In this document: positions 9,581 through 50,732 of the stretch, piece after piece
Layout of the letters: each line of letters opens with the position of its first letter
Position numbering within the stretch: position 1 is the stretch's first letter
Assembly (NCBI GenBank): GCA_036320915.1
Contig: JAXBDG010000013.1
Span: 372,001 to 436,000 of the forward strand
Reading direction: 5' to 3'
Length of the DNA stretch: 64,000 bases
Source of the DNA: Linnemannia elongata
Taxonomy: Eukaryota > Mortierellomycota > Mortierellomycetes > Mortierellales > Mortierellaceae
Program-made: the position numbers and the translations under genes
The notes under the pieces: model-generated
Seen by the model: only the letters and a program-made list of their open reading frames with translations
The model's database searches: none
What the model was told of the DNA's origin: nothing

Positions 9581-9589
9581 ACTTTTCCT
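9581..9589. repeat. Left 9-bp target-site duplication of the 15.5-kb element
   Basis: ACTTTTCCT directly abuts the left terminal inverted repeat. The same nine bases follow the right one at 25079-25087. Confidence 0.85.
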
Positions 9590-9655
9590 GACGCTCTGAA
9601 CCACAACCAACTCGCCAGCAAAAGAATTTTGCTGACGAGGGGCTGGGACACAATT
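9590..9655 (+). repeat. Left 66-bp terminal inverted repeat of the 15.5-kb element
   Basis: Perfect reverse complement of 25013-25078. It contains an internal 8-bp palindrome, CAGCAAAA-GAA-TTTTGCTG, that could form a small hairpin. Confidence 0.9.
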
Positions 9656-9676
9656 TGCTCTTTTGCTAAGGAAGCG

Positions 9677-10383
9677 TAGGCTCGGTTCCATCCTGAGGGA
9701 AAGACAGATTCACTTTACTAAGGTCGCAGTAAATGCTGCAAGAAAATTCTGTTGCCTTTTATGGCAACGACATTTTTCTTTCTCCTCAGGTAGGCTCGCT
9801 TTCATCCGTTTCATATTACGAGGGTTGGAAATCTTTTCGATTTCTTTAGGACACTCTTCATATGACGGCTGGAAGGCGTCCAGCGTACCTAAAGGGGATC
9901 CCAAAAAGGAAAGTTGTTAAGGGTTTTACACAGGCGTAGAACATTTTTTTTTTGAGAAATCACGAAGGTGCTTCTACGCCTGTGTAAAACCCTTAACAAC
10001 TTTCCTTTTTGGGATCCCCTTTAGGTACGCTGGACGCCTTCCAGCCGTCATATGAAGAGTGTCCTAAAGAAATCGAAAAGATTTCCAACCCTCGTAATAT
10101 GAAACGGATGAAAGCGAGCCTACTCCTCAGGCTGGTCTCAAACTCGAGGTTCACAAGGGAGTGCTCAAACCAGCTCCAAAAAAGGAAACTTCTTAAGGGT
10201 TTAGCATCGCCCATGCCCTGTACCTGAGAGACGGGCATAGAGGGTTCATGCCTTGCTTTATGCATGCGTCAGCAGGGAGGACATGGAGGCATGGACAGAC
10301 CTAAATGCCACGGCGCATGTGTTTTGCATTCGCCCCTCATCACTCACTCACAACGACATACAACAGCACAACAACGCCCATGT
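9677..10383 (+). repeat. Left 707-bp inverted repeat of the nested element
   Basis: Inverted match of 15382-16468 minus its MITE insertion. The inner edge (CGCCCATGT) lies 78 bp downstream of the predicted RecQ start codon at 10305, so the arm carries the 5' region and first codons of that gene. Confidence 0.88.
9782..10131. mobile_element. Palindromic MITE-like element with 9-bp target-site duplication (copy 1)
   Basis: Element 9791-10122 (332 bp) made of two 151-bp arms (9791-9941 and 9972-10122) that read as exact inverted copies around a 30-nt loop. It is flanked by CTCCTCAGG at 9782-9790 and 10123-10131. The ends read TAGGCTCGC inward, matching the first eight bases of the nested element's own termini. 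It has no coding capacity, so it is likely a non-autonomous foldback derivative. Confidence 0.85.
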
Positions 10384-12633
10384 ACTGTTCAACATCGCTC
10401 GTGCTCAGCTCAGCACCTCTGACCATCGATTCTACAGAAACTTTTGACGAACAGAAAGCCAGAGCGCAGTGCCTCGAAGTTTTTGAAGTCCCTGCAAAGC
10501 CAGAACAGCTTGAGGTGGTCTCTGCTTTGGCACGGCGCCAGGATTGCATTCTGATTGCAGGTTGCGGTTGGGGTAAGACGCTTGTTTACTTTCTTCCATT
10601 GGTACTCTGGCCTGACCGAGTCATCCTTGTCCTGTCTCCACTGAAAGCCCTGGCGGAGGAGCAACAGCAAAAACTAGAGATCGTCAATATTCGCAGCATT
10701 GCCATCAAGGGAGAGACTGTTATTACACAGGAAATATTGAACAGCCTGGGCGAGGGAAGGTATCGCTATGTTGTCAAAAGATGTAGTAATAATCACACCA
10801 GGCGTCAAGCTATAAACGGCACGAACCTAATACAACCCACCTTATTTTCCTTCAACTTTTATTCTTCCTTTAAATTCTTCAGGTATAGGGCAGTTTTCCT
10901 CTCTCCAGAGCTCATTTTCAGCAGTGATCGCATAAAAAACCTGTGGAGACAGCCTGGTTGGAGGAAGCGGCTCTTTGCCATAGTAGTGGATGAGGCGCAT
11001 TGCATCGATTCTTGGGGCGGCAGCTTTCGTCAAGAGTACGGTCGTATTGGAGAATTGCGTAGTATGGTTCCCCGTGAGATACCTTTCCTGGCAACATCAG
11101 CAACACTTCCTCCTCAAGTCCTAGAAAACATCAAAAAACGTCTTCATTTTCGCCCGGATACCCATATTGTCAACGTTGGCAACGATCGGCCCAACATCAA
11201 GTTCATTGTCATTGAATTTCAATATCCTATGAATTCTTTTCAGGACCTCAAGTTTCTTATGGATTTCAAGAAGACGATTGTATATTTCAATACACGCCCG
11301 GATGCCGAACGCGCTCGCAGATATCTTCTGCAAGAGTTGTGTCTTGACTCGAACAAGATTGCAGTATATCACTCTATCAAGTCGGAAAAACTCAAAGCGG
11401 ATGTCCTGGAGAGATTCAGAAAAGACAAGGTCCTAATATTGCTTGCTACAGTGGCCGTCGGAATGGGCTGTGACATCAACAACATCGCCCGTGTAGTTCA
11501 GTACGGCATACCCCAAAGTCTCGCTTCCTTGATCCAACGACTTGGCCGAGCAGCGCGCGACTCGAAGTTGCAAGGTATAGGGCTCACTATTGTACCGCAT
11601 AATCCGTCTCGGGCAGTCAAAGATACAGCCGACAAGGACCTCCACGCGTTTCTTTACACCGAGACCTGTCGCCGCGAGGTTCTGGATGGTATATTCGGCA
11701 ATAAGAAACGCGAGAAGGAGGACGAGAAAGTCAACACCAATTGCTGCGATAACTGCCATCCTAAGAAGAAGAGTGTGGAGATTGTTTGCACTAACACAGA
11801 GGTTTATCAGGATGTGGAAGCCAAGGCTGCTGCCAAACGAGTTCCACGTCGCACAGATGAAGAAAAGGCTGTTGCTAAACAGGCAATTGAGAGCTGGAGG
11901 AAGGCAGTGTGGGAGCGCGACTTTTCCTCCAGAACTTTCTTTTTTCCTACGCCACAGTATGTGATGTCGGATCAAGTTCTACAGGCACTTGCAGACAAGC
12001 ATGCCAAAGTTGTGGCGGCCGACTCTATCAACTCTTTTCTTAATTGGAGCCCTCCAAAAAGCGAATACATACAGGAGCTAACCGCCATTCTCATGGACAT
12101 TAATAAGACCATCACAGATAGACAAGGAGAGAAGGTAAATGAACCATCTAGATCTACATTATCATTGGTGCAATGTCAATCAGCACCTAAATTAATACGC
12201 TGTTATCTTTTAGAGCTCGTCCTTAAAATATAGAGATTGTACTCCTAGTCGCTCGACAAATCAACCTCTGACACCTTCACCTAGGATGCCTCCGCCTCCA
12301 AAGAAGCCTCGCTTACACCAAGATAAATTTTCTTTTATCTACAATACCCCTCCTCCACCTTTTGCAGTTTCAATTGTTCAATTCGCGTTGCCGCCCAACC
12401 AAGTGCAGTCTCCGCCTCAACAACCATTCATCAATCCTACAGACAGTAATTCTCATTCCCCAACCCCCACCAAGTCTTCGACACTTCCACTTGCAACGCC
12501 TTTACCTACAACACTCACGCCCCCATCCCTTCAAAGGAAGTCTCGTCTTCCACGAAGCGGCTTTACATTTGCTGACCGGAACAACTGGACAGCGGCTAAG
12601 TACCTTGGTGGACAAGGATCCTCTTCAAAATAA
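10305..12633 (+). CDS. RecQ-type superfamily 2 DNA helicase carried by the nested element
   Basis: Three exons: 10305-10759, 10883-12134, 12214-12633; 2127 nt, 708 aa. The helicase motifs are complete: Walker A AGCGWGKT near residue 86, motif Ia LSPLKALAEEQ, motif II VVDEAHCIDSWG, motif III FLATSATLP, motif IV TIVYFNTRPDAERA, motif V VAVGMGCDINN and motif VI QRLGRAARD. A Cys cluster (CCDNCHP) follows, as in the RecQ zinc-binding region. The C-terminal 140 residues are Pro/Ser-rich and disordered. The start lies inside the inverted repeat, and the other arm encodes nearly the same first 26 residues. Predicted role: 3'-5' DNA unwinding, perhaps in transposition or replication of the element. 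The first intron is 123 nt and free of in-frame stops, so an unspliced form would also be open. Confidence 0.85.
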
Positions 12634-12846
12634 CATTATGGCGCTTGAAATTCCCATAAATAAAGGTAACGGCAATGTACCTGATGAAAACAAAATGACA
12701 TTTTCTCCCTCCTGCCTTCAGCGGCAGCAATGATTCTTAGGCATAACGACGCGATGAGAATTTAGTATTCTGCGTGTAAGGGGGAATATAGCATTTATTG
12801 CAAGGTGCATTACTCGCACAGATTATGCACGTAGTTAACAGCTCAC
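12634..12846. other. Convergent 3' spacer between RecQ and DUF6589-type genes
   Basis: 213 bp holding the 3' ends of two convergent genes. Nothing else was recognised. Confidence 0.5.
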
Positions 12847-15460
12847 TTATGCCTCATTCTCGACTTCCTCTCCAAATCCCTGGCTGTCATAAATATGCTT
12901 GTCAATGAAGGCTCGAATACGCTTCTCATCCTGTAGAGCGATGGTGCCGGCGAAAAGAAGATCTTTGGCAGCTTCTGTTCCTTTGCATTTCTGAACACAA
13001 GGCGAAATGTCGTGGCCGAGAATGTTGTTTTCTCTGAATATCGTCAATATGTCGTCTAGGGCCGTGTCTGCAGATACTGCTGCATGTTTGCGTTTATTCT
13101 TGGGTGCTTGGAATTGCTTTTCTATTTGATCTTTGGCATCGTCGAAAGTTTCTATGTTCGTCGATATTCGCTCCCGTAATGTGTCGAATGACGTGTCTCC
13201 TTGTCTGCTGTAATGGACATGTTTTATCGATCGATTGTGGTGCTCCTGATATAAATCCGTAGGTTTCCAGCCATACCGCTCCCCGGATTTGTTCACTAGC
13301 ATGGAGGACAGGATGGCGATCTTGGTTTGTTCGTCCCATACATGCGTGACACAGCAGCGGAAATGCATGAGCTCGTAGGCATAGTGTGGAGTGGACCCAG
13401 CATGAAAGACAATGGTGAGCCATTTGAGAGCTTTCTCAATACGTCCGATATCGCCGATCTTGATAGCCGAAGATAGCTCCATGTACAGCATCATGTCTCG
13501 AAGAAATAATGTAGCGTTCCTGGATGGAATATCCTCGATGTTGGACGTGTTGATATCCCGATCAATGACTTCCATGACTTTATCGTTGATAAGATTGCTG
13601 AATTCCATGTCGTTGCTGTATTTTCTCAGGTTGCACATCTCCTTGTCCTCCATCGATACCTCCCATAATCTGAGAACCGTCGCGGTAAAGACATGTCGAA
13701 GGAGTTCGTCCATTGCATGAAACTCTGGATTGTCGGAAAAGACCCTCTTCCTTTGTAACATTGTCGCAAGTTGTTCCAAAGATCCTTGCACATTGGCGGA
13801 GCCGCGATAGTTGTGTACGATAGTTCTGGCCAACAACATCTGCATATGAAATAGTTGTGCCACGGGAAGAGCCCAGTCCAATCGGTGGTATAGCGAGTGT
13901 TCGTCCGAGCGAAGGTCCTTTAAGCCTCGAAGTTTTTTAACGGTTGACAGATCTCCTGCTATGACGACCATCTTTCCACTAGCGAACCAACCCTCCTCCA
14001 GTCCGAGCACTTCCTCAATGATAGTCTCGACGACAGCTTTGTTCCCCTCCAGAGAAGACTCATCGATCTTCATGGTTGGCAATGGAAAAGTCGCTGTTTT
14101 TGTGGGCGTAAGTTGGTGTATGTCGATATTTGGGGGGAAGCAGAGGTCATATCCCTCCAGATTCTTCTTCAGTGCCTATGATAACAGCAGAGCAAAGAGG
14201 TGTGAATGTGTAAGTGGATGAGAGGGAAGACAAGACAAGAGAGACAAGGAAGAAGAGAGTATTAGAGAGTGAGAGATAGAGGCTAGAAAAGGTGATGGTT
14301 ACTGTACAGAAAGATCAGATATTTGTGCAGAGGGTTATCAGTGGGGTGTAGTTGTAGCATAGGTGGTTAGATGTGGATATGGTTAGATAGGGATGTGATT
14401 AGAGAGGGATAGGCGGTTCACTCCTCCTTATGAAACTGCCACATTACCTCAATGAAATGGAATCGACAAACTTGTTTTACATGAGCATCGTCCGCTTCGT
14501 CCATCATGAAATCTGCCGAGGAAAGGCGTGAATAAGAGTCACGGATCTGGTGGGCAGGGTAATGAGTGAGACGTTCGCCGATGATCATCGTTGCCGTTGT
14601 GCCGCTTTCGAAGTCGTCCGCGTTGCCTACTCGTTGATCGTACTTCCGTTTGGCAAAATTGATGTTGTCGTATACAAAAAACCACTCGTCTCGACCAGCC
14701 GCCTCCTTGATCCTCTCCAGGGCCTTTTCGGTCAGATCCTTGAGTAGCCGATTAATCGTTGGGAACGATACACATAGGCCAGCTCCGTGAAGAACGTCGA
14801 TGACCTTACGAGTACACCCTGCACTGTAGAGGTAGAGGCCCATCGTGATCTGCAAATATTTTGAACGATTGCACCGAGTAAACGCCAGAATGCTGCCGAT
14901 TATTGGAACGGCCAAGGAACGTCGCCTAGGGTTGGTTGTATCGAGCTTTTTCGGTTGTGTCAATCCTTGAAGAATCTTGAATATAAGGGGTGCGCTCGAT
15001 GCAAGACGTTGGTTGATGTGAGCCATAGAGAACTTGTGGACACTCGAAGCTGAATAGGAAGGTCTTTCGACGTGCAAGCGTTTATCCATGGCCAGGGTCA
15101 TTAGTTCTTTTCGTGCAAAGGACAAAACGTAGGTGACGGCAATATTGGCTAGTTCGGTATCCTTTGGGTGTTTAGCCATCCAGAGTTTGGTAATGTGTGA
15201 CGGCCCGCCATTCGAATAAAACTTGCCGACGTAACGCTTCACATGTTCGTTTTCACAATAACCTTCTCCAAAAACGTCCGCAGCGTTAACTTGTGTTTCT
15301 TGAATACCGCGAAGACCTCCAACAGCCCTTGTATAGGCGGTTTTTCTTGGAGAGAGTTAGGACCAGTTGCGAAAGTGGAGAACATGGGCGTTGTTGTGCT
15401 GTTGTATGTCGTTGTGAGTGAGTGATGAGGGACGAATGCAAAACACATGCGCCGTGGCAT
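12847..15460 (-). CDS. DUF6589-type protein, candidate transposase, with a probable frameshift near its N-terminus
   Basis: Main coding exons are about 15265-14448 and 14175-12847, joined in phase by a 272-bp GT-AG intron; the part from 15242 alone encodes 707 aa. Recognisable features of the fungal DUF6589 family, as I recall it, are a region near FFVYDNINFAKRK, then LPTMKIDESSLEGNK, then VVIAGDLSTVKKLRGLK, then LDWALPVAQLFHMQMLL. The acidic residues in FFVYDNINF and VIAGDL sit on predicted hydrophobic strands, as the first two acidic residues of an RNase-H-fold nuclease would, but that is inference. An N-terminal frame begins at 15460 inside the right inverted repeat (MPRRMCFAF) and runs GLLEVFAVFKKHKLTLRTFL, ending at a TGA at 15239. 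The main frame continues as ENEHVKRYVGKFY in another frame, so a one-base shift near 15243-15265 is likely. An unseen small intron is the alternative. Confidence 0.7.
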
Positions 15461-15520
15461 TTAGGTCTGTCCATGCCTCCATGTCCTCCCTGCTGACGCA
15501 TGCATAAAGCAAGGCATGAA

Positions 15521-15909
15521 CCCTCTATGTAGTCTCGACCCAGTCCTTCAGATTCCGAGTACTGGGAATTTCATTCCCATAGAGTATCTTCATCATAGAA
15601 GGTCTGGAAGAAATGAAGGTGTGTGACAAGGGGTAATCCTCTCTCAATTTTTGTGCCCCAAACCTTCCTTTTTGGGACGAAACTACAACCAGTCACATGA
15701 TTTAACATGCCATCTTCATGCCATTCTAGCCACGTGACTGGTTGTAGTTTCGTCCCAAAAAGGAATGTTTGGGGCACAAAAATTGAGAGAGGACTACCCC
15801 TTGTCACACACCTTCATTTCTTCCAGACCTTCTATGATGAAGATACTCTATGGGAATGAAATTCCCAGTACTCGGAATCTGAAGGACTGGGTCGAGACTA
15901 CCCTCTATG
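15521..15909. mobile_element. Second palindromic MITE-like element with 9-bp target-site duplication
   Basis: Element 15530-15900 (371 bp) with two 167-bp near-perfect inverted arms (15530-15696 and 15734-15900) and a 37-nt centre. It is flanked by CCCTCTATG at 15521-15529 and 15901-15909. Its ends read TAGTCTCGAC inward. The unoccupied site, with a single copy of the 9-mer, is preserved at 10236-10244 in the left inverted repeat. It lies about 60 bp upstream of the predicted DUF6589-type start. No coding capacity. Confidence 0.9.
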
Positions 15910-16013
15910 CCCGTCTCTCAGGTACAGGGCATGGGCGATGCTAAACCCTTAAGAAGTTTCCTTTTTTGGAGCTGGTTTGAGCACTCCCTTGTGAACCTCG
16001 AGTTTGAGACCAG

Positions 16014-16363
16014 CCTGAGGAGTAGGCTCGCTTTCATCCGTTTCATATTACGAGGGTTGGAAATCTTTTCGATTTCTTTAGGACACTCTTCATATGACGG
16101 CTGGAAGGCGTCCAGCGTACCTAAAGGGGATCCCAAAAAGGAAAGTTGTTAAGGGTTTTACACAGGCGTAGAAGCACCTTCGTGATTTCTCAAAAAAAAA
16201 ATGTTCTACGCCTGTGTAAAACCCTTAACAACTTTCCTTTTTGGGATCCCCTTTAGGTACGCTGGACGCCTTCCAGCCGTCATATGAAGAGTGTCCTAAA
16301 GAAATCGAAAAGATTTCCAACCCTCGTAATATGAAACGGATGAAAGCGAGCCTACCTGAGGAG
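16014..16363. mobile_element. Palindromic MITE-like element (copy 2 of the 332-bp type)
   Basis: Element 16023-16354 (332 bp) flanked by CCTGAGGAG at 16014-16022 and 16355-16363. It is the inverted counterpart of the copy at 9791-10122, at the equivalent place in the other arm. Confidence 0.85.
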
Positions 16364-16719
16364 AAAGAAAAATGTCGTTGCCATAAAAGGCAACAGAATT
16401 TTCTTGCAGCATTTACTGCGACCTTAGTAAAGTGAATCTGTCTTTCCCTCAGGATGGAACCGAGCCTAGAGTTTCGGGAAAATTTTGACAGCGCAATTGT
16501 GTTCCGTATAGGATTAATATAACCAAACGTGGATGTGACGTTAAGACTTGTCCAAAAATGGATGTGGCTTTTGGTGGCGTTATGTGTAGAGGCTCGTATG
16601 CAAGCCAGACTGTACAAAAGTTAATACGGACTCGTGAAGAGTCAAACGAGATCGTCTTTCTCTTTGTCCCCTTCGTTTCTTCAAGTCTCGCACCTCTTGT
16701 TACTCCCATTTCATTCAAC

Positions 16720-17751
16720 ATGGACGCACCCAATATCCCACCACTCCCTGTTCAGATTCTGCAAGATGACTTCAGCTTTCTCTCGCATTTTCGATTCACT
16801 CTAGAAGAGATCGCTTGGATGGCTGAACATCTTGGCCTCCCTGAAGTGATTATCAGCCCTTCAGGCAGAGAGAGAGTCTCTCGGTTTGAAGGTCTCTGCA
16901 TTGTCCTCCACCGTCTGGCCTGGCCAAACCGTCTGAAAGAATCGAAAATCCTGTTTGACATGCCGCTATCGTCCCTCTCTACCCTCTTCAATCACATACT
17001 TGTCGACATCCACCGGCGCTGGACGCATCTACTTCTCTGGGACCATGTCCGTTTGACCCCAGAGTTCTTGGTCGGATGCATGGATAACGTGCTACTGAAA
17101 GGAGGGCTCCTACAAGAGACCTTCGCCTTCATCGATGGCACCTGCATGGAGATCTGCCGCCCGGGGGAGTATCAGCAGGAGTATTACAGCGGTCACAAGC
17201 GGATGCATTGCTTGAAGTATCAAGCAATCTCGACGCCCGATGGCATCATAATTCATCTAGGCGGTCCATTTACTGGTCGGCACAACGATGCTGGTATGCT
17301 CATTAGGTCAAGCATTCGCCATTACCTCTCTGAGCATGCTCACTGTCCTGCCGGCAGACAGTTGGTCGTGTATGGCGACGAGGGTTACGGTCAGTCGCCC
17401 GAGGTCCGAGCGGCTTTCAGAGGCAACATCCTAACGCCTGAGCAAGAAGCCCGGAATGTGAGCATGCGGCGTCCCCGTCTCTCGGCCGAATGGGCATTTG
17501 GCTTTGTCTCCAACAACTTTGGTCTACTTAACTATCGCCAAAAGTTGAGGCTTTATCTCTCCCCTATTGGTCACTACTACCCGGTCGCTGTCCTTTTCTG
17601 CAACCTCTTGCGATGCTTTGGTAGGCATAGCACTACGCAGAGCTACTTTGGAAAAGCGCCACCAGGACCCGAGGAGTACCTCACCCCAAGAGTTATATGG
17701 GATGCAACTCGAGTTGTCCATAACAAGCCTGCTTACTTTGATCGGATATAA
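16720..17751 (+). CDS. PIF/Harbinger-like DDE nuclease (HARBI1-type)
   Basis: Single exon, 343 aa when started at the ATG at 16720 (good context, CAACATGG); the frame is open back to 16558. The catalytic triad of the DDE_Tnp_4 type appears intact: D139 in FAFIDGTCM, D220 in VVYGDEGYGQ and E257 in RLSAEWAFGFV, with spacings of 81 and 37 residues. The segments FTGRHNDAGML and SGHKRMHCLKYQAI also fit the family. These enzymes normally cut transposon ends together with a Myb-like partner and leave 3-bp duplications, whereas the enclosing element has 9 bp. The gene sits between the nested element and the coiled-coil gene. It may be the outer element's own enzyme or a domesticated passenger. Confidence 0.85.
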   Translation: MDAPNIPPLPVQILQDDFSFLSHFRFTLEEIAWMAEHLGLPEVIISPSGRERVSRFEGLCIVLHRLAWPNRLKESKILFDMPLSSLSTLFNHILVDIHRRWTHLLLWDHVRLTPEFLVGCMDNVLLKGGLLQETFAFIDGTCMEICRPGEYQQEYYSGHKRMHCLKYQAISTPDGIIIHLGGPFTGRHNDAGMLIRSSIRHYLSEHAHCPAGRQLVVYGDEGYGQSPEVRAAFRGNILTPEQEARNVSMRRPRLSAEWAFGFVSNNFGLLNYRQKLRLYLSPIGHYYPVAVLFCNLLRCFGRHSTTQSYFGKAPPGPEEYLTPRVIWDATRVVHNKPAYFDRI

Positions 17752-17899
17752 AACGCACGTGGCAACCATCCCACGATCTGACTAAACATTTGAAAACTGA
17801 GCGAAAAAAATAATACTCTTGACCAAAGGAAGACCCTTCTTTTGTTGCTACTGGAAGTAGAAATGGGCTTGAGATTTATGGAGGAACAGAGTATGGCGA

Positions 17900-19246
17900 C
17901 TATGTGAAAGGCTTATTCAATCTATTGTTAGTATCGAGCGTCGTGATCCTGTTGTCAAGATCGCGTGTCTTCTTACTGATGTCTGAGACGTCAAGGTCTA
18001 TCTGATTAAACTGGCCTTGCACCAGCTTGACCTGAGTTTGTACCACCTTGACCTCACTTTGCACCACCTTGACCTCACTTTGCACCAGAGTAAGCTGTTC
18101 CTGTAAAGATTGGGTGGACTGAACGTTCCGCCTTTTAAACGCTCGGAGCTCGTCGTCGATGTTGTCTACTGATTTTCGGGTTGACTGCGTGACTTGAAGC
18201 ATCTCCATTCTGAGCTGCCGGTTCTGCGCCTCGAGCTCTTCCACACGAGCAAGTAATGCTGATATCCTGTCAGTCTCAGCCGCCGTTGCGCGCCTTTTGA
18301 ACCTTGGAGCCGGGCGCACAAAGGCTGATGAACCTTGAACTTTGACAGGTGATGATGGATCCATATCCGTGGACTCACTCGCTGATGAGAGGTGTTGTCC
18401 CTGCATTGGTGGTCTTGCTGGTGCTCTCAACTGAATGGACTCTTTTTGACGGAGAATATCCGGCTGCATGATCGACGGTTCGCCAGTTCGCTGACTAGGG
18501 CCGGGACGCGCGTCCGAGATCCGATAAATTGGTGTAGGAGTTGATTCTGATGGAACGACAGGCGGCGGCGGCGGCGGCGGGTCGGCATCATCGTCGGCAT
18601 CATCATCGGCATCATCATCGGCATCATCTTTGGCATCGTTTGTGATCGTTACTCCAGTATCCTCGCCAACCTCGTCAACTACTTGCGACGCTCGCTTCTT
18701 TCCGGTCAGGTTACCAAGCATGGCATCCACAACCTGTTGCTCGACAACCAGGGCCTCCGATACCTGCTGCCTCTTCGCCTCGCTCTTCACCGCCTGTTGT
18801 CGATTCTCGCGATCCCGTAGCTCTCTGTCATTCTCAACCAGGCTCAGCGCCATATCCGACATCCGCGTATCTGTCCATGTAAATCCCGTTGCCATTACAA
18901 GAAAATCACTCAGTGCTTTCCGCTCTTTGATGATTTTCTCGTAGAGCGATACCAGAGCTAGAGGCGTGACATTCCGTAGGGACGGTTCGATTGATCCAAG
19001 TTCCGCTGCCAATTCTTTGAACGAAGCGCTGTCCTTCGTAAAGCCAAATTGATAGGTCTCGTCTTGCAGGTAAGCCTTTTCTGGAATGCGATTGTGAAGA
19101 AAAAGGACCGCCTTGAAGATGTTCTCACAGTTTGTGCAAGAGTTGTTAAACTGTAGCGAGCGAAACGGTCCGCTCAAGGACACTTCTTGACTGACGGCAT
19201 CGTGTGTATCACTGGCAGCTATGGAACACAGAGAGGAACTCGCCAA
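17900..19246 (-). CDS. Asp-rich coiled-coil protein of the element, unknown function
   Basis: Open frame of 448 aa. An N-terminal helical region of about 150 residues has no recognised family. It is followed by an acidic stretch of repeated DDAD units around residue 220 and a Pro run. A basic Ser/Pro linker comes next, then a C-terminal coiled coil. Within the coil a seven-residue unit of the type VQSEVKV is repeated about four times (18010-18100). The frame stays open past an AG at 19209, so the true 5' end may lie in an upstream exon at about 19489-19310 that encodes MTTRTRSNALYYCRVLDF. The splice donor there is not clear. Being beside a HARBI1-like nuclease makes a DNA-binding or targeting partner possible, but no Myb/SANT motif was seen. 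Confidence 0.55.
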   Translation of the reverse strand: MASSSLCSIAASDTHDAVSQEVSLSGPFRSLQFNNSCTNCENIFKAVLFLHNRIPEKAYLQDETYQFGFTKDSASFKELAAELGSIEPSLRNVTPLALVSLYEKIIKERKALSDFLVMATGFTWTDTRMSDMALSLVENDRELRDRENRQQAVKSEAKRQQVSEALVVEQQVVDAMLGNLTGKKRASQVVDEVGEDTGVTITNDAKDDADDDADDDADDDADPPPPPPPVVPSESTPTPIYRISDARPGPSQRTGEPSIMQPDILRQKESIQLRAPARPPMQGQHLSSASESTDMDPSSPVKVQGSSAFVRPAPRFKRRATAAETDRISALLARVEELEAQNRQLRMEMLQVTQSTRKSVDNIDDELRAFKRRNVQSTQSLQEQLTLVQSEVKVVQSEVKVVQTQVKLVQGQFNQIDLDVSDISKKTRDLDNRITTLDTNNRLNKPFT

Positions 19247-19270
19247 GGATCAATATGATGAAAAAGCATT

Positions 19271-19489
19271 TTAATTCAAGACAAACTCAATCTTGGAAAA
19301 AAAAGACGAACATGGTGTAACGGTTCTTCGCATCAGTTCCTCCGCATTCGGCGGGTCTCTGAAAACCTTGAGGTAGTGGTCGCGTTTTTGATACGCGGAG
19401 GCATTGGGCGAGAGCTCTAGCCTCCTCGATGGCTTAAAGTCCAGCACTCTACAATAATACAATGCATTACTCCGTGTTCTTGTAGTCAT
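19271..19489 (-). CDS. Possible first exon of the Asp-rich coiled-coil gene
   Basis: A 72-residue frame starting MTTRTRSNALYYCRVLDF, with a basic central part (KPSRRLEL, YQKRDHYLKVF), directly upstream of and on the same strand as the 448-aa frame. It begins about 16 bp from the satellite array. Weak GT donors exist near 19300-19320 and an AG lies at the head of the downstream frame. Without transcript data I cannot say whether it is one gene or a separate small ORF. Confidence 0.35.
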   Translation of the reverse strand: MTTRTRSNALYYCRVLDFKPSRRLELSPNASAYQKRDHYLKVFRDPPNAEELMRRTVTPCSSFFSKIEFVLN

Positions 19490-19504
19490 GATGGAGAGGA
19501 ACGA

Positions 19505-22500
19505 TCTCTACTATACTAAAAAAATATTGTTTTTTTTAAATGTCACGTGAGGGCGGAGCCCGAACGAAAGAAAAAGAAAATTGTGAGGGCGGAGCCCGAA
19601 CCAGTGTCTTGCGCGGAGCGCGGCCGCGCGAAGCGCCAGTACTTTGTGAGGGCGGAGCCCGAGCTATGGCTCCCCTTGCGCGAAGAGCACGGAAGAAGAA
19701 TATGTGAGGGCGTAGCCCGAACCAGGGGGGCTATCTTGCGCGGAGCGCGGTGGTATTTTGCGCGAAGAGCACGGAAGAAGAAGATGTGAGGGCGTAGCCC
19801 GAACTAAAGGAACAATCACGGCCAAAGTGCCAGAATTTTGTGAGGGCGTAGCCCGAACCAGAGGAACTATCTTGCCCAAAGCACAACCAGCAAGGGTATC
19901 CTGCTGGAAGCGCACGGAATAAGAGGGTGTGAGGGCGTAGCCCGAACTAAAGGAACAATCACGGCTAGAGTGCCAGTATTTTGTGAGGGTGTAACTCGAA
20001 CCAGGGAACTATCTTGCCCAAAGCGCCGGTATTTTGTGAGGGCGAAGCCCGAGCTATATGACCTTTGGCGCCAGTATTCTGTGAGCACAGCGCACTGACG
20101 GAAAAAGATGAGGGCGTAGCCCGAATCAGAGGATCTATGGCTATATTGTAAGAACAACGCCCGGGCTATGTGTTCCCTTCCCTGCCGCCGCATGCGGCAG
20201 AAGGGAGGGAGCGCACAGCGAGCACAATCGTCAAAGCAATCTTGCGTGAACTTTTAAGCAAGCACTTCTTTCCCCTGCTGATCTCTTTTTTTTTTTGATT
20301 GATGATCATACTATGTGTTGCGTCTTTATCCTTTCCTTTCTTTCACTCCAGATATCTCCTTACTCCACTGGCCAACTTTCATGCTCAGGCGCGCGCTCAG
20401 GCACACCTCCGAAAATGTTGAAGCACAAGAGAGGCAATCAAGACTGGAGACACACAGCGGGGGCTGGTATGTGCTTAAGAACAGCCAAGAGCATACGGGC
20501 CTGTGGTTGAAAAAATCAAGACGGTGAAGATCATAAGAGAGAGTATCGAAATGAAAACAGCAGCAGACGTTCTCCTCTCTTCTCCCCCTCCCTCTTCTCC
20601 CCTTCCCTCCCCTCAGCTAACGGGACTGCAGTGTTGACAGCACAGACACCCGAAGGGCATGATGTCAGACAGGCATGGGCACTCGAAGAGCACCCCCGAA
20701 GAGTACCCCCGAAGAGCACCCCCGAAGAGGACCCCCGAAGAGCACCCCCGAAGAGTACCCCCGAAGCGAATGTGGCCGGACACACAACGCGCAACTCTGG
20801 ACACGGAAGATATTTCTTTTTTCTTTTTTTTTTTTTTTTTTTTTTCTTTCCCCCTTCTTTTTCTTTTTCCTTTTCCTTTTCCTTTTCTTTTTACGAACAC
20901 CGAAAAAGCAAGCCCCAGTCGGACCTTACAACAACACAAAACAGTCACATTAAATCAATTTCAACTTGGGTCACCCTCACACCCTCACACCCTCACAAGC
21001 ATAACACGACATCCCAGAGTCCCAGAGAACCCAAAAAAAAAAGGCCAAGAGCCTCCAAGAACCCCAGCCCTCTCCCACCACGGCGCCAGCACCACACCCC
21101 AGCACCCGTGGCATCGCCCACGGGCACCCTTTCTAGTCTCTACTATACTAAAAAAATAGTGTTTTTTTTGCTAAATCACGTGAGGGCGGAGCCCGAACGA
21201 AAGAAAAAGAAAATTGTGAGGGCGGAGCCCGAACCAGTATCTTGCGCGAAGCGCGCCTGCGCGAAGCGCCAGTATTTTGCGCGGAGCGCCAGTACTTTGT
21301 GAGGGCGGAGCCCGAGCTATGGCTCCCCTTGCGCGAAGTGAACGGAAGAAGAAGGTGTGAGGGCGTAGCCCGAACCAGGGGGCTATCTTGCGCGGAGCGC
21401 GGTGGTATTTTGCGCGAAGAGCACGGAAGAAGAAGATGTGAGGGCGTAGCCCGAACTAAGGGGGTTATTTTGCTCAAAGCACCGGTATTTTGTGAGGGCG
21501 GAACCCGAGCTATGGGCCCCCTCGCGCGAAGAGCACGGAAGACGAGGGTGTGAGGGCGTAGCCCGAACCAGGGGGGCTATCTTGCGCGGAGCGCGGTGGT
21601 ATTTTGCGCGAAGAGCACGGAAGAAGAAGATGTGAGGGCGTAGCCCAAACTAAGGGGGTTATTTTGCTCAAAGCACCGGTATTTTGTGAGGGCGGAACCC
21701 GAGCTATGGGCCCCCTCGCGCGAAGAGCACGGAAGACGAGGGTGTGAGGGCGTAGCCCGAACCAGGGGAACTATCTTGCCCAAAGCACAACCAGCAAGGG
21801 TATCCTGCTGGAAGCGCACGGAAGAAGAGGGTGTGAGGGCGTAGCCCGAACTAAAGGAGCAATCACGGCCAGAGTGCCAGTATTTTGTGAGGGTGTAGCC
21901 CGAACCAGGGAACTATCTTGCCCAAAGCGCCGGTATTTTGTGAGTGCGAAGCCCGAGCTATATGACCTTTGGCGCCAGTATTCTGTGAGCACAGCGCACT
22001 GACGGAAAAAGATGAGGGCGTAGCCCGAATCAGAGGATCTATGGCTATATTGTAAGAACAACGCCCGGGCTATGTGTTCCCTTCCCTGCCGCCGCATGCG
22101 GCAGAAGGGAGGGAGCGCACAGCGAGCACAATCGTCAAAGCAATCTTGCGTGAACTTTTATGCAGGCACTTCTTTCCCCTGCTGATCTCTTTTTTTTTGA
22201 TTGATGATCACACTATGTGTTGCGTCTTTATCCTTTTCCTTTCCTTCACTCCAGATATCTCCTTACTCCACTGGCCAACTTTCATGCTCAGGCGCGCGCT
22301 CAGGCACACCCCGAAAATGTTGAAGCACAAGAGAGGCAATCAAGACTGGAGACACACAGCGGGGGCTGGTATGTGCTTAAGAACAGCCAAGAGCAGACGG
22401 GCCTGTGGTTGAAAAAATCAAGACGGTGAAGATCATAAGAGAGAGCATCGAAATGAAAACAGCAGCAGACGTTCTCCTCTCTTCTCCCCCTCCCTCTTCT

Positions 22501-24882
22501 CCCCTTCCCTCCCCTCAGCTAACGGGACTGCAGTGTTGACAGCACAGACACCCGAAGGGCATGATGTCAGACAGGCATGGGCACTCGAAGAGCACCCCCG
22601 AAGAGGACCCCCGAAGCGAAGGTGGCCGGATACGCAACGCGCACCTCTGGACACGGAAGAATTTTTTTTTTTTTTTTTTTCTTTTTTTTTTTTTTCCGCC
22701 TCCCCCATTTTCCTTTTCTTCTTTTTCTTTTTCCTTTTTTCTTTCCTTTCTTTTTCTTTTTCCTTTTCTTTTTCCTTTTCCTTTTCCTTTTCTTTTTACG
22801 AACACCGAACAAGCAAGCCCCAGTCGGACCTTACAACAACACAAAACAGTCACATTAAATCAATTTCAACTTGGGTCATCCTCACACCCTCACACGCATA
22901 ACACGACATCCCAGAGTCCCAGAGAACCCAAAAAAAAAGGCCAAGAGCCTCCAAGAACCCCAGCCCTCTCCCACCACGGCACCAGCACCAGCACCCGTGG
23001 CATCGCCCACGGGCACCCTTTCTAGTCTCTACTATACTAAAAAAATATCACTTTTTGCTAAATCACGTGAGGGCGGAGCCCGAACGAAAGAAAAAGAAAA
23101 TTGTGAGGGCGGAGCCCGAACCAGTGTCTTGCGCGAAGCGCGCCCGCGCGAAGCGCCAGTACTTTGTGAGGGCGGAGCCCGAGCTATGGCTCCCCTTGCG
23201 CGAAGAGCACGGAAGAAGAATATGTGAGGGCGTAGCCCGAACCAGGGGGGCTATCTTGCGCGGAGCGCGGTGGTATTTTGCGCGAAGAGCACGGAAGAAG
23301 ATGTGAGGGCGTAGCCCGAATTTGGGGGGTTATTTTGCTCAAAGCACCGGTATTTTGTGAGGGCGGAGCCCGAGCTATGGGCCCCCTTGCGCGAAGTGCA
23401 CGGAAGAAGAGGGTGTGAGGGCGTAGCCCGAACTAAAGGAACAATCACGGGCAAAGTGCCAGTATTTTGTGAGGGCGTAGCCCGAACCAGGGAAACTATC
23501 TTGCCCAAAGCGCGACCAGCAAGGGCATCCTGCTGGAAGCGCACGGAAGAAGAGGGTGTGAGGGCGTAGCCCGAACTAAAGGAACAGTCAAGGCCAAAGT
23601 GCCAGTATTTTGTGAGGGCGTAGCCCGAGCTGTGTGAACCTTGGCGCCGGCTGCGGCAAAATGGATGGAGTGCTTTAGCGCGACCATCAAGGTCATCTTG
23701 CGCGAAGCGCGCGGGGAAGAAGAAGATGTGAGGGCATAGCCCGAACCAGATGCACTAACTTGCGCGAAGCGCCTGTATGCTATGAGCGCAGCGCGCTCAC
23801 GGAAGAGGATGAGGGCGTAGCCCGAATCAGAGGATCTATGGCTATATTGTAAGAACAACGCCCGGGCTATGTGTTCCCTTCCCTGCCGCCGCATGCGGCA
23901 GAAGGGAGGGAGCGCACAGCGAGCACAATCGTCAAAGCAATCTTGCGTGAACTTTTAAGCAAGCACTTCTTTCCCCTGCTGATCTCTTTTTTTTGATTGA
24001 TGATGACACTATGTGTTGCGTCTTTATCCTTTTCCTTTCCTTCACTCCAGATATCTCCTTACTCCACTGGCCAACTTTCATGCTCAGGCGCGCGCTCAGG
24101 CACACCCCCGAAAATGTTGAAGCACAAGAGAGGCAATCAACACTGAAGACACACAGCGGGGGCTGGTATGTGCTTAAGAACAGCCAAGAGCATACGGGCC
24201 TGTGGTTGAAAAAATCAAGACGGTGAAGATCATAAGAGAGAGCATCGAAATGAAAACAGCAGCAGACGTTCTCCTCTCTTCTCCCCCTCCCTCTTCTCCC
24301 CTTCCCTCCCCTCAGCTAACGGGACTGCAGTCTTGACGCCAAGAGAGGGCACGATGTCAGACAGGCACGAGCACTCGAAGAGCACCCCGAAGAGTACCCC
24401 CGAAGCGAAGGTGGCCGGACACACAACGCGCACCTCTGGACACGGAAGATATTTTTTTTTTTTCTTTTTTGTTTTTTCTTTCCCCCTCCCCCCTTTTCCT
24501 TTTCTTTTTTCCTTTTCTTCTTCTTTTTCCCTTTTCTTCTTCTTTTTTCCTTTTCTTCTTCTTTTTCCCTTTTCTTCTTCTTTTTTCTTTTTCTTCTTCT
24601 TTTTTCCTTTTCTTCTTTTTCTTTTTCCTTTTCTCTTTCCTTTCTTCTTTTTACGAACCCCAAACAAGCAAGCCCCTGTCGGAACTTACAGCAACACAAA
24701 ACAGTCACATTAAATCATTTTCAATTTGGGTCACCCTCACACCCCTCACACGCATAACACGACATCCCAGAGTCCCAGAGAACCCAAAAAAAAAGACCAA
24801 GAGCCTCCAAGAACCCCACCCCACTCCCACCACGGCACCAGCACCAGCACCCGTGGCATCGCCCACGGGCACCCTTTCTAGT
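19505..24882. repeat. Three tandem 1.6-1.9-kb satellite units
   Basis: Head-to-tail units 19505-21136 (1632 bp), 21137-23025 (1889 bp) and 23026-24882 (1857 bp). Each opens with TCTCTACTATACTAAAAAAATA and a CACGTG site and ends with GGGCACCCTTTCTAG. Each unit has, in order: a GC-rich minisatellite of GTGAGGGCGGAGCCCGAAC-like and GCGCGAAGCGC-like repeats; a conserved 300-bp segment with the palindrome CCGCCGCATGCGGC; a 15-bp repeat CCCGAAGAGCACCCC; a long T/C tract; and a conserved tail. The frames found in it are periodic low-complexity translations, so it is treated as non-coding. Confidence 0.88.
20690..20770 (+). repeat. 15-bp tandem repeat inside satellite unit 1
   Basis: About six copies of a CCCGAAGAGCACCCC-type unit in the first satellite unit. 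The second unit (near 22585-22615) and third unit (near 24375-24410) keep only about two or three. Confidence 0.75.
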
Positions 24883-25012
24883 GTTGGAAAAAAGAGCTAA
24901 AGGAAACTATGTATATGACTGTTATTTTGTCACGTGATTCTTTCTCTCCTCCCATTTTGAGGTGTATTCAATCCGCAGCTATATAAACACCAGCTTCCTC
25001 CCGAACCTGCTG
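24883..25012 (+). promoter_or_regulatory. Right subterminal region with an outward TATA box
   Basis: 130 bp between the satellite array and the right terminal repeat. It contains TCACGTGA near 24930-24937 and CTATATAAAC near 24980-24989, oriented toward the chromosome. This could be an outward promoter; no clear gene follows it. Confidence 0.35.
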
Positions 25013-25078
25013 AATTGTGTCCCAGCCCCTCGTCAGCAAAATTCTTTTGCTGGCGAGTTGGTTGTGGTTCAGAGCGTC
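25013..25078 (-). repeat. Right 66-bp terminal inverted repeat of the 15.5-kb element
   Basis: Perfect inverted copy of 9590-9655. Confidence 0.9.
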
Positions 25079-25087
25079 ACTTTTCCT
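25079..25087. repeat. Right 9-bp target-site duplication
   Basis: ACTTTTCCT, identical to 9581-9589. Confidence 0.85.
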
Positions 25088-25819: not shown

Positions 25820-26662
25820 TTAACAGGCGGGGATGGACTTGGCTTGAGCGCCACGGCAATTAGCGGTGGTGGAGACCTTGGGAGATTCCTTTTTACCGTT
25901 CTTGACAATGCCCTTGAATTCCTGGCAGACATGCTTGATACCGGTTCCACACGATCCAGAGATGATAGCGACATCACCGTAGTTGGAGTTGATGCCAACG
26001 AGATCAGCGTTAACGGTGTTGGCCTTGACGTTTTGAACAATGACATTTCTTGGGCCACCGTTCTTGCTGCAGTTACCGCAGCTGCGGAAGAGCTTGCCGA
26101 CGTTGACGACGGTGTAGTCCTTGATGGTGACCGTTCCTCTTCCGTTGTGTTGGACGACCTTGTCCTTGGCGTTCTGAGCTCCACCTCCTTGGATCAAGAC
26201 GCTTCCGGTGCCTTTAATAGTAATGGCATCTAATTGAGAAAAATGCCAAGTTTTTGTGGTTAGGACAGGGGTGCGGTGAATGAGAATGTAGGTAGTGAAT
26301 GAAAATGTGTGCAGGGAATAGGAATGTCTTGTACCTTCGCAGACATCGCGGAACCAGACGTTCTTAAGAGTGCAAGCACCCTCGCAATGAACGCCCTCAA
26401 GAGCGTTCGCTCCGATGATGACGTTGCTCAAAGTAGCACCATCCTTAAGGATGAAGACGGCGTTGGCAGATCCAGTGTCCTTATCAGAGTTGCAAGGATG
26501 TCCACGGTCGAACTCCTTGTTGGCGAAGTCCTTAACTCCAGAGATAATGCTTGGTGCGGGGAGGGCAACGACGCTACCGGATCGAGTTGGGATGTTGAGA
26601 GTTTGCGCGGCGCCGAGGGTGGCGAAGACAGCAGCAGTGATAGTGGCGACTTGGAACTTCAT
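25820..26662 (-). CDS. Secreted pectate lyase, family PL3
   Basis: Two exons, 26662-26335 and 26229-25820; 738 nt, 245 aa. It cleaves de-esterified pectin by beta-elimination outside the cell. The first 19-20 residues (MKFQVATITAAVFATLGAAQ) are a clear signal peptide. The core has the right-handed beta-helix pattern of PL3, with ANALEGVHCEG, LKNVWFRDVCEDAITIKG, GTVTIKDYTVVNVGKL and several Cys pairs. The intron interrupts the Asp codon of the conserved DVCED-AITIKG motif, as expected if the model is right. Length fits the family. It points to a saprotroph or plant-associated life style. A TATA box lies about 150 bp upstream. Confidence 0.93.
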   Translation of the reverse strand: MKFQVATITAAVFATLGAAQTLNIPTRSGSVVALPAPSIISGVKDFANKEFDRGHPCNSDKDTGSANAVFILKDGATLSNVIIGANALEGVHCEGACTLKNVWFRDVCEGTRHSYSLHTFSFTTYILIHRTPVLTTKTWHFSQLDAITIKGTGSVLIQGGGAQNAKDKVVQHNGRGTVTIKDYTVVNVGKLFRSCGNCSKNGGPRNVIVQNVKANTVNADLVGINSNYGDVAIISGSCGTGIKHVCQEFKGIVKNGKKESPKVSTTANCRGAQAKSIPAC

Positions 26663-26806
26663 GTTGAATAAATGGATTCGGAAAGTAGATTCTTGGTTGA
26701 GGGTTGGACTGGGTGTGGTGTAATATTGATGCTGTAGATGTGGAAGCTAAAGACTTGGCGAAGACTGACTGATGAAGAGAAAAATGCCAAGGGACGAATG
26801 CAGTCC

Positions 26807-48063: not shown

Positions 48064-50732
48064 CTAATCGACTAGGAGATCCTCTACGTCGTCTGCTGTG
48101 CGCACTAGAATGGTAGCCGGAAACTCGTACTGGTTCTTGGGGTCCTCAACAGCCTGGCACAGGCGCCGGTATGCATCCACAAACATCCTCACGTTCTGTG
48201 TACTAATAGCCTTGGCCAACCTCGACGACACAATCTTCGACAGCCACGACGACAGATCCAGGGTCACCGATCCTAAAAAGTGGTCCAGACGCGACAAGAT
48301 AGCCGAGATTGACATTGCATCCATGCCTGGCACCAACGATAGTGGCGTCTATGTATTGTTATAAGCAAAGTCTATGTTAGTTCAATTGGTCGTGAACATG
48401 AGATCAACTATTGCCATTGCCGGTAGTCGAATGCCTTACCTTCTCATCCTTGGTTTCCATGGCCTGTATTATTGGCGCAATGCCAGACTGCTTCAACAAC
48501 ACAATATGCTATATACCAGAGAGAAAGAGGCGCAAAGTTGTTTAGAAGACTTTGAGCCACCAACATATTCTAGTCAAGAGCAATTGATGCCGCTACTAAC
48601 CTGCTCATCGACAACAGTATCGACATAGTCCTGAACTTGCTTTTCAAGGTCTTCCACCTTGTGCTTTGTGAATGGGTATACGAGCGCCGACTATAGTAAA
48701 TTAGAGACAAAAAACGATGGTCAGAAAAAGACGCCAGACATAGTGCCCATCAAGTTAGCTGCAAACCAACGACACGAGAAATCTTACCTGGACATAGTGA
48801 AGACAGTTCATCATGTAGATGGCTCTGTTGAAGGCACTCAAGTGAGCGGCGCCAATCTCACACATCTGGAAAAGTGGATCAATCACAGCACTCAGGATGG
48901 GTGCAAAGTCCTTGTTGCCCTCATCGACCTGGACAAAGGACGTGTCGAACGATTTCATGATCTCCTTGAGTTGAAGTACAGTCTCCTTCATGGCTGGAGG
49001 TGGTCCGAGATCTGTTCCTGGAGTGTCAGGTCGACGTAAGAGATCAGCTGATTGCTTTCCGATCGCGTCAAAGAACACCTGCATCGAAGCATCCGAGATT
49101 TCGTGCAACGTTTTCGAAAGGGCTGCTTCTGTTCCGATGGCCCTCTCGATTGTCGAAGAGTAGAACTTGATGAGGTTGGAGATCTTGAATGCCGTGATGG
49201 CGTTTGCCTGAGAAACCAACACCTGCTCTACTCGCGTCTATTAAAAGAAAATGCAATTGTCGTCAAACTAATGCCCTATATCACGACTTTCCCTCCAGAG
49301 GTCCAAGTTGTCCTGAAACTCACCTTGAGTGGTCGTGCGGTTCCTTCGAGGTTCTTGTCCAGAAGCGAGTCAACAATCTCTGCATCTGTAGCATCGCTTT
49401 CGACAAGCCGCAATGGGCTAGCCTTGGGCAACTTGATCTCCGCCTGTCCACGATCCCGCTTCTTGCGCTCACTGCTCAGAACGCTCTCCAAAAACTCGCG
49501 TTCACTCGCCACAGTCTGATGGATCCATGCCAACATGTCTCCAATGTATCGCAGGGGGTCGTGAGCATGCAGTTCGATCGGTCGTGGTGTGCCTCCAGGT
49601 CCTCCTCTCGTCAAGGCATCAATGAATGCTCTGAGAATAGCGTTGCGTCGCACATGGACCAATTCCTCTAGAATCGATCTGAAGAATTGGTCATCCTGCT
49701 TGAGTGCCTGGATCGCCTTCTTGGTAACCTCTCGAACCTCCATCATCCCGTCCGGTCGACTCATTGTCCTGCATTCATTTTGCATCCATCTGAACAGCTT
49801 TTCGTATGAAATACTGCGATATGTCCTCATCGAGTCCATGATCTCCAACCTGTATAGACAATTCAACGACAAATAATGTAGAGGTTAGGCATAGCGGTCC
49901 AAAGTAGTCCTGGTACTTGTTCAATGGACTACCGGGGTTGCTTTCAAGAATGAACATACCCTGCTCGCTGATGCTCTGTAATTAAAAGCGCGTTGCAGTC
50001 GGCGTGAATGTTTTCCAGATGCTCCAGCGCGTCAAAGAAGGCTGGCGTGACATCCATAGCGGTCGAGCACAGGATCGTAATTTCTGACTCTGACAATGTA
50101 AATCGATCCAGAAACGCTTCCAAGATAGTCTGTCGCACTACGCAAATGTTGCTATTGTTCAGTTGAAAGAGCAGAAGGAAGTTAAGGTCAGTTGTTTGTG
50201 TGCAATTCATGGCGTCAATAAGTTTGGTTACACCTTCGTGAAAGAACGAGTTGTACCTCTGTTCCCGAAGAGCGTCAGTCTGCTCAAGCAAGGTGACGGT
50301 TTTGTCATTCGCCAAGTTCAGACGTTCCTGCATCTCCTGACAGAGTGAGTTCATTTCGTTCATCTCGGCCTCCAGTTCCAAGAATTGCTACAACGTCCAT
50401 GACCATAAAGACTGAAGAGTTAGATGATGAGTTCATCAGACGCGTGAGATGATGACTTCCGCCTCTTTGACAACCTCCTTTCTGGGTAGTCGAAAAGAGA
50501 AAAATAAAAAATAAGTGTATTTTACAATGTTGACTTTCTCCAGCTCACGGAGGAACTGGTAGTTGACTTCGGTGCCTCTTCGTTCTATATCGCCCCTGAG
50601 GTTATGTCGCGAGTTGACGGCATTGACGGTGTAGAACTCTGAGAGGGCGGTGAGGGAAGTCCTGAGTTTTGGGTCGTCGAGTGAGCTCGCAAGAAGCTTT
50701 GTCAGCTTTGCGCTGAGCGGGTTTGCATTCAT
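48064..50732 (-). CDS. COG6: Conserved oligomeric Golgi complex subunit 6
   Basis: Lobe B subunit of the COG vesicle-tethering complex on the Golgi. Eight exons: 50732-50526, 50387-50257, 50151-49960, 49849-49324, 49238-48788, 48689-48601, 48508-48440, 48348-48064; 1950 nt, 649 aa, the normal family length. Recognisable segments are NPLSAKLTKLLASSLDD, NSRHNLRGDIERRG, EMNEMNSLCQEMQERL, the highly conserved FIDALTRGGPGGTPRPIEL with HDPLRYIGDMLAWIHQ, and the C-terminal LDHFLGSVTLDL. The start is the first Met and matches the family N-terminus. The first intron carries a stretch of open frame (KEVVKEAEVI) that I judge not to be an exon, because the direct junction aligns better. Confidence 0.93.

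Follow-up and report, generated by a model that had tools for sequence, protein, structure and literature searches.

A 64,000-nucleotide window of the Linnemannia elongata genome (C5:372001-436000, in a 51.1-Mb assembly of 32 contigs that served for all genome searches) contains a 15.5-kb unit flanked by terminal inverted repeats (TIRs) and a 9-bp target-site duplication (TSD). The unit is probably a non-autonomous, cargo-carrying member of a class of TIR transposons encoding a helicase and a DUF6589 protein, with the hallmarks of AcademH, that was moved in trans. It is a nest of elements (Table 1). Between the outer ends, with their TSD, lie an inner element that belongs to the same class but to a different family and has miniature inverted-repeat transposable elements (MITEs) in its TIRs, and a segment (resembling a locus on contig C4) that is interrupted by a Helitron array.

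Ends of the unit and related termini

The two outer repeats show no mismatch over 66 nt and both are bordered by ACTTTTCCT, so that the original prediction of a transposition unit with defined ends and a TSD, itself not a Helitron, is upheld. The window contains seven copies of ACTTTTCCT on both strands together, and it is their placement that matters. When 9-mers of the left 2-kb flank were paired with those of the right one, 28 of 3,968,064 pairs matched (7.1e-6), and a chance origin of the duplication is therefore unlikely.

A search with the 87-nt left outer end (family A) found four places in the genome: the two ends described here, an exact 70-nt half on C13 and a relic with 79% identity on C10. 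On C13 the copy measures 143 bp and is a hybrid that pairs an A end with a GACGCTGTGATACCCAACCA end; it has no TSD. Further copies of the terminus, which the original prediction had proposed to look for, are thus single, hybrid or relic ends, the window locus being the only place in this genome where family A ends are paired. It is highly improbable that the 15.5-kb unit never transposed, its ends having met by recombination or local copying and its 9-bp match being fortuitous; such an origin would agree with the single family A ends on C13 and C10 and with the rearrangement seen in the inner copy at this locus, but not with facing ends that lack any mismatch in 66 nt and have flanking 9-mers whose match has a chance of ~7e-6.

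The motif GACGCTGTGATACCCAACCA marks a second family (B), with 14 exact genome matches against one for the reversed control pattern. These make up five pairs of facing ends, with four ends left single; every pair has a 9-bp TSD and shows no TIR mismatch in the 48 to 74 nt that were compared. Two pairs delimit elements of 8,048 bp that contain a DUF6589 match (307 bits, open frame of 964 aa) and a helicase match (170 bits, 38% identity) with two internal stops. The alignment score of the A and B TIRs (53.5) exceeds those of all 500 shuffles (best 42.0), and by this comparison the two are homologous. Homology between the outer and inner TIRs was not shown (score 25.0, best shuffle 36.5). Hairpins are predicted in single strands of the A TIR (Table 1), the B TIR (z -4.3) and the inner end (z -4.4). 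Overall, 15 of 17 two-ended places have a 9-bp TSD, the exceptions being the inner copy in the window and the C13 hybrid. A 154-bp facing pair of GACGCT-type ends with two mismatches (C29:1150572-1150725) perhaps represents a further small family.

MULEs (Mutator-like elements) pack host DNA. The outer ends might come from a different superfamily in which TSDs measure 8-10 bp, such as these, and their likeness to family B might be superficial; a comparable TSD length (4 to 10 bp) is given for IS256/MuDR in the excerpt of PMC10045372. We consider this unlikely, as the A and B TIRs are homologous by alignment and share the same hairpin plan, and family B has DUF6589 and helicase matches; moreover, no MULE domain was found in the five main open reading frames (ORFs), MULE transposases not having been searched for genome-wide.

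The inner transposon and its MITEs

The inner arms, located by repeat analysis at 9677-10245 and 15900-16468, are perfect over 569 nt each and enclose three ORFs, that of the helicase and the two of DUF6589. The first 113 nt of this element have 16 genome matches, which comprise seven facing pairs (including that in the window) and two unpaired ends; one of the latter, on C29, shares its flank with a paired copy on that contig. All six pairs outside the window have a 9-bp TSD, whereas the window copy, flanked by AAGGAAGCG and GAGTTTCGG, has none. A C29 copy of 5,734 bp is 99.7% identical to the window copy over a 5.4-kb block and is devoid of MITE1 and MITE2. MITE1 occupies both arms in the window and only one arm in the C12 and C32 copies, which suggests that it was copied between arms.

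The 5,958-bp copy on C12 (C12:1737751-1743708) carries ~5 kb of other sequence, unlike the interior of the window copy and including an ORF with a hAT dimerisation domain. It was considered as a second case of capture and rejected, since it is a MITE-like copy into which a different element has inserted, an instance of nesting. Two copies on C29 (1474494-1480227 and 1494353-1499046) lie ~19 kb apart with a common right flank, and the region looks duplicated; the helicase match is broken in the second of them.

The DUF6589 protein of the window is 98% identical to a Linnemannia elongata protein. Its predicted structure superposes on DDE transposases, and three acidic residues are conserved in the alignment (D241 in 32 of 34 rows, D378 in 37 of 37 and E571 in 35 of 36). 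A sequence search of the PDB with this alignment returned five matches, all at chance level. A search with the alignment for more distant DUF6589 proteins listed 17; wherever the source was named, it was a Mortierellomycete fungus. DUF6589 is unmentioned in the literature searched. From the gene context, the position inside TIR elements with 9-bp TSDs and the predicted fold, we propose that DUF6589 is probably a DDE transposase, which would give a likely role to a Pfam family of unknown function.

Relatives of the helicase without a nearby DUF6589 match, all with equal scores, are found at C1:4795350-4796822, C17:397984-399456, C20:105647-107119, C18:12816-14288 and C18:37536-39008. Some of those on C1 and C18 are placed ~13 kb from the end of a contig, a position similar to that of subtelomeric RecQ helicases in other fungi, and there may be kinship between the transposon helicase and helicases linked to telomeres.

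The C4-like segment and the Helitron array

With the array removed, window positions 16469-25017 align with C4 in a single alignment of 3,173 columns (99.2% identity, 12 mismatches, 13 gaps). The outer TIR is absent at the C4 copy (29.8 kb examined). The left border of the segment coincides exactly with the terminus of the inner element, and at the right border the C4 match and the outer TIR have AATTG in common. Five homologues on C18 and C21 (about 82-88% identity) share neither border, and their DDE matches cross stops. No convincing TIR surrounds the C4 copy of the DDE gene (best matches 10 nt, E 3.3), and a Harbinger element around this gene was therefore rejected. We read the C4-like segment as cargo rather than as a mobility module. 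A border precise to the terminus, together with unmatched flanks, fits either recombination of two inner copies or an adjacent deletion made by transposase.

The tandem array was originally described as satellite DNA. The tandem arrangement stands, but the satellite reading was rejected, since Helitron ends account for the array: its three units, of 1,632, 1,889 and 1,856 bp, all begin with TCTCTACTATAC and finish with a hairpin (fold z -2.6 to -3.0) and CTAG. The empty site on C4, ACGA|TGTTGG, places the insertion between A and T with no duplication. A second array, on C4, is likewise preceded by A and followed by T, and an array on C13, the start of which was not identified, is followed by T. 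The 3' end has 41 genome matches, and the array sequence has 142 over many contigs. The genome also contains Helitron_like_N domains (29 of 30 matches exceed the cut-off), one of which, at C8:1133575, sits between stretches of array sequence. No Pfam family was found in the one array ORF scanned. These features fit non-autonomous Helitrons in tandem. Lone minus-strand look-alikes of the 5' end at 48707 and 59023 were dropped for want of a 3' end. At C7:232373-242494, six 3' ends in the same direction, ~2 kb apart, mark out another, longer array of this Helitron.

A reading along the lines of the original prediction takes the helicase, DUF6589 and DDE nuclease genes and the array as parts of a single integrated 15-kb element of a new class, moved by their joint action. 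The domains are indeed present as Pfam families in the ORFs, as is the array, and all lie between one perfect pair of TIRs with a TSD. Their origins, however, are separate: the helicase and DUF6589 genes belong to an inner element whose family also stands alone elsewhere, bordered by 9-bp TSDs of its own; C4 has the DDE segment but not the outer ends; and for the array there are both Helitron termini and an empty site. The inner element, as an independent unit, and the Helitron ends went unnoticed in the original prediction. A single integrated class is thus very unlikely.

Relation to known transposons

AcademH elements, helicase-encoding DNA transposons of fungi, were reportedly described by Kojima in 2020. 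The original prediction found no match to any known fungal transposon class. This is not supported, as the helicase, the TIRs and the 9-bp TSD fit the AcademH description in the excerpt of PMC10045372, where AcademH elements have TSDs of 9 or 10 bp, against 3 or 4 bp in AcademX, the difference being tied to helicase versus nuclease. The helicase trait is represented by the RecQ-like gene of the inner element and the interrupted match in family B. No XPG nuclease, the mark of AcademX, was found in five scanned ORFs, a scan that lay outside the family B interior; nor was a tyrosine recombinase (Starship captain) found in these ORFs, no dedicated search being made. Compared with the published description, the families fit AcademH by helicase, TIRs and TSD length, and they are called AcademH-type here. 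Excerpts of other papers report AcademH at low copy number in Basidiomycota, Ascomycota and Mucoromycota (PMC10799480) and non-autonomous Academ elements in Marasmius (PMC8290104). The outer unit differs from AcademH in its 15.5-kb length, in its C4-like and Helitron contents and in having no transposase or helicase of its own outside the inner element. It is also conceivable, although rather improbable, that DUF6589-helicase transposons are a DDE superfamily apart from Academ, with hairpin TIRs opened by the helicase, that packages and moves many kilobases of foreign DNA, transposons included.

The DUF6589 protein is set apart from the hAT (Hermes) and P-element transposases, the TSDs of which are 8 bp, by the absence of an above-chance match to a solved structure, by the 9-bp TSD and by the linked RecQ-like helicase. 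Kolobok elements duplicate TTAA. KolobokH was rejected on TSD and gene layout, as the TSDs here are 9 bp and vary in sequence, and the helicase is a separate, convergent gene, although the excerpt of PMC9587614 describes a Kolobok-type element that is likewise a fungal DNA transposon with a RecQ-like helicase. The DDE segment shares a DDE_Tnp_4 transposase with PIF/Harbinger, but short TIRs around the gene were not found. Pack-TYPE transposons, exemplified by plant MULE, CACTA and similar elements, also enclose non-transposon or foreign DNA between transposon ends, whereas most of the cargo here is mobile DNA in its own right. The array resembles non-autonomous Helitrons in its 5' TC, 3' hairpin, CTRR-type CTAG and A/T insertion without duplication; it differs in its three head-to-tail copies, and the host is not among the Fusarium Helitron2 cases in the excerpt of PMC5148889. 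A literature search on Academ gene capture or Pack-TYPE elements, Mortierella transposons and Helitron arrays returned no title describing such an element, which is weak evidence, as titles only were covered.

Proposed formation and movement

A DUF6589 protein acting in trans as a DDE transposase would have moved the unit, leaving the 9-bp TSD. Its most likely source is a family B-like element, with TIRs homologous to the outer ones, and the helicase might conceivably help to open the hairpin-bearing ends. The cargo could have been enclosed by recombination between inner copies in two contexts, or by an adjacent deletion made by transposase, and the capture completed by end joining at the shared AATTG; movement may have occurred with or without the later insertions.

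The unit is real, well bounded and built from known kinds of element; the fresh points are the probable function of DUF6589, the hairpin-bearing TIRs and the cargo under AcademH-type ends. Near-identical copies (99.7%) in such families are a sign of recent movement, and AcademH-type elements grow large by nesting and capture. The array also serves as a warning that what reads as a satellite may in fact consist of Helitrons in series.

Table 1. Features of the 15.5-kb unit, in window coordinates
Feature	Position	Strand	Remarks
Left TSD	9581..9589		9 bp, ACTTTTCCT
Left outer TIR, family A	9590..9655	+	sub-terminal hairpin, fold z -3.5
Outer-element interior	9656..9676	+	21 nt; C10 relic 79% to query 4-86 of 87-nt left end
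Inner helicase/DUF6589 transposon	9677..16468		termini TAGGCTCGG; 569-nt perfect arms; this copy without TSD
MITE1, left inner TIR	9791..10122		own 9-bp TSD CTCCTCAGG
RecQ-like helicase	10305..12233	+	open frame, 642 aa
DUF6589 gene	12847..15356	-	open frames 12847-14175 and 14418-15356; probable DDE transposase
MITE2, right inner arm	15530..15900		own 9-bp TSD CCCTCTATG
MITE1, right inner TIR	16023..16354		mirror of left one
C4-like segment, part one	16469..19504	+	99% identity to C4:652282-655442
DDE_Tnp_4 (HARBI1-like) gene	16489..17751	+	open frame, 420 aa; PF13359 1.9e-21
Open frame	17900..19249	-	449 aa; no Pfam family over cut-off
Array of three non-autonomous Helitrons	19505..24881	+	units 19505-21136, 21137-23025, 23026-24881; TC...hairpin...CTAG
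C4-like segment, part two	24882..25012	+	match continues to 25017 via shared AATTG
Right outer TIR, family A	25013..25078	-	
Right TSD	25079..25087		9 bp, ACTTTTCCT

Outside the unit, a pectate lyase gene (PF03211, 8e-71) is located on the minus strand at 25820-26746 of the window, beginning ~730 bp past the right end.
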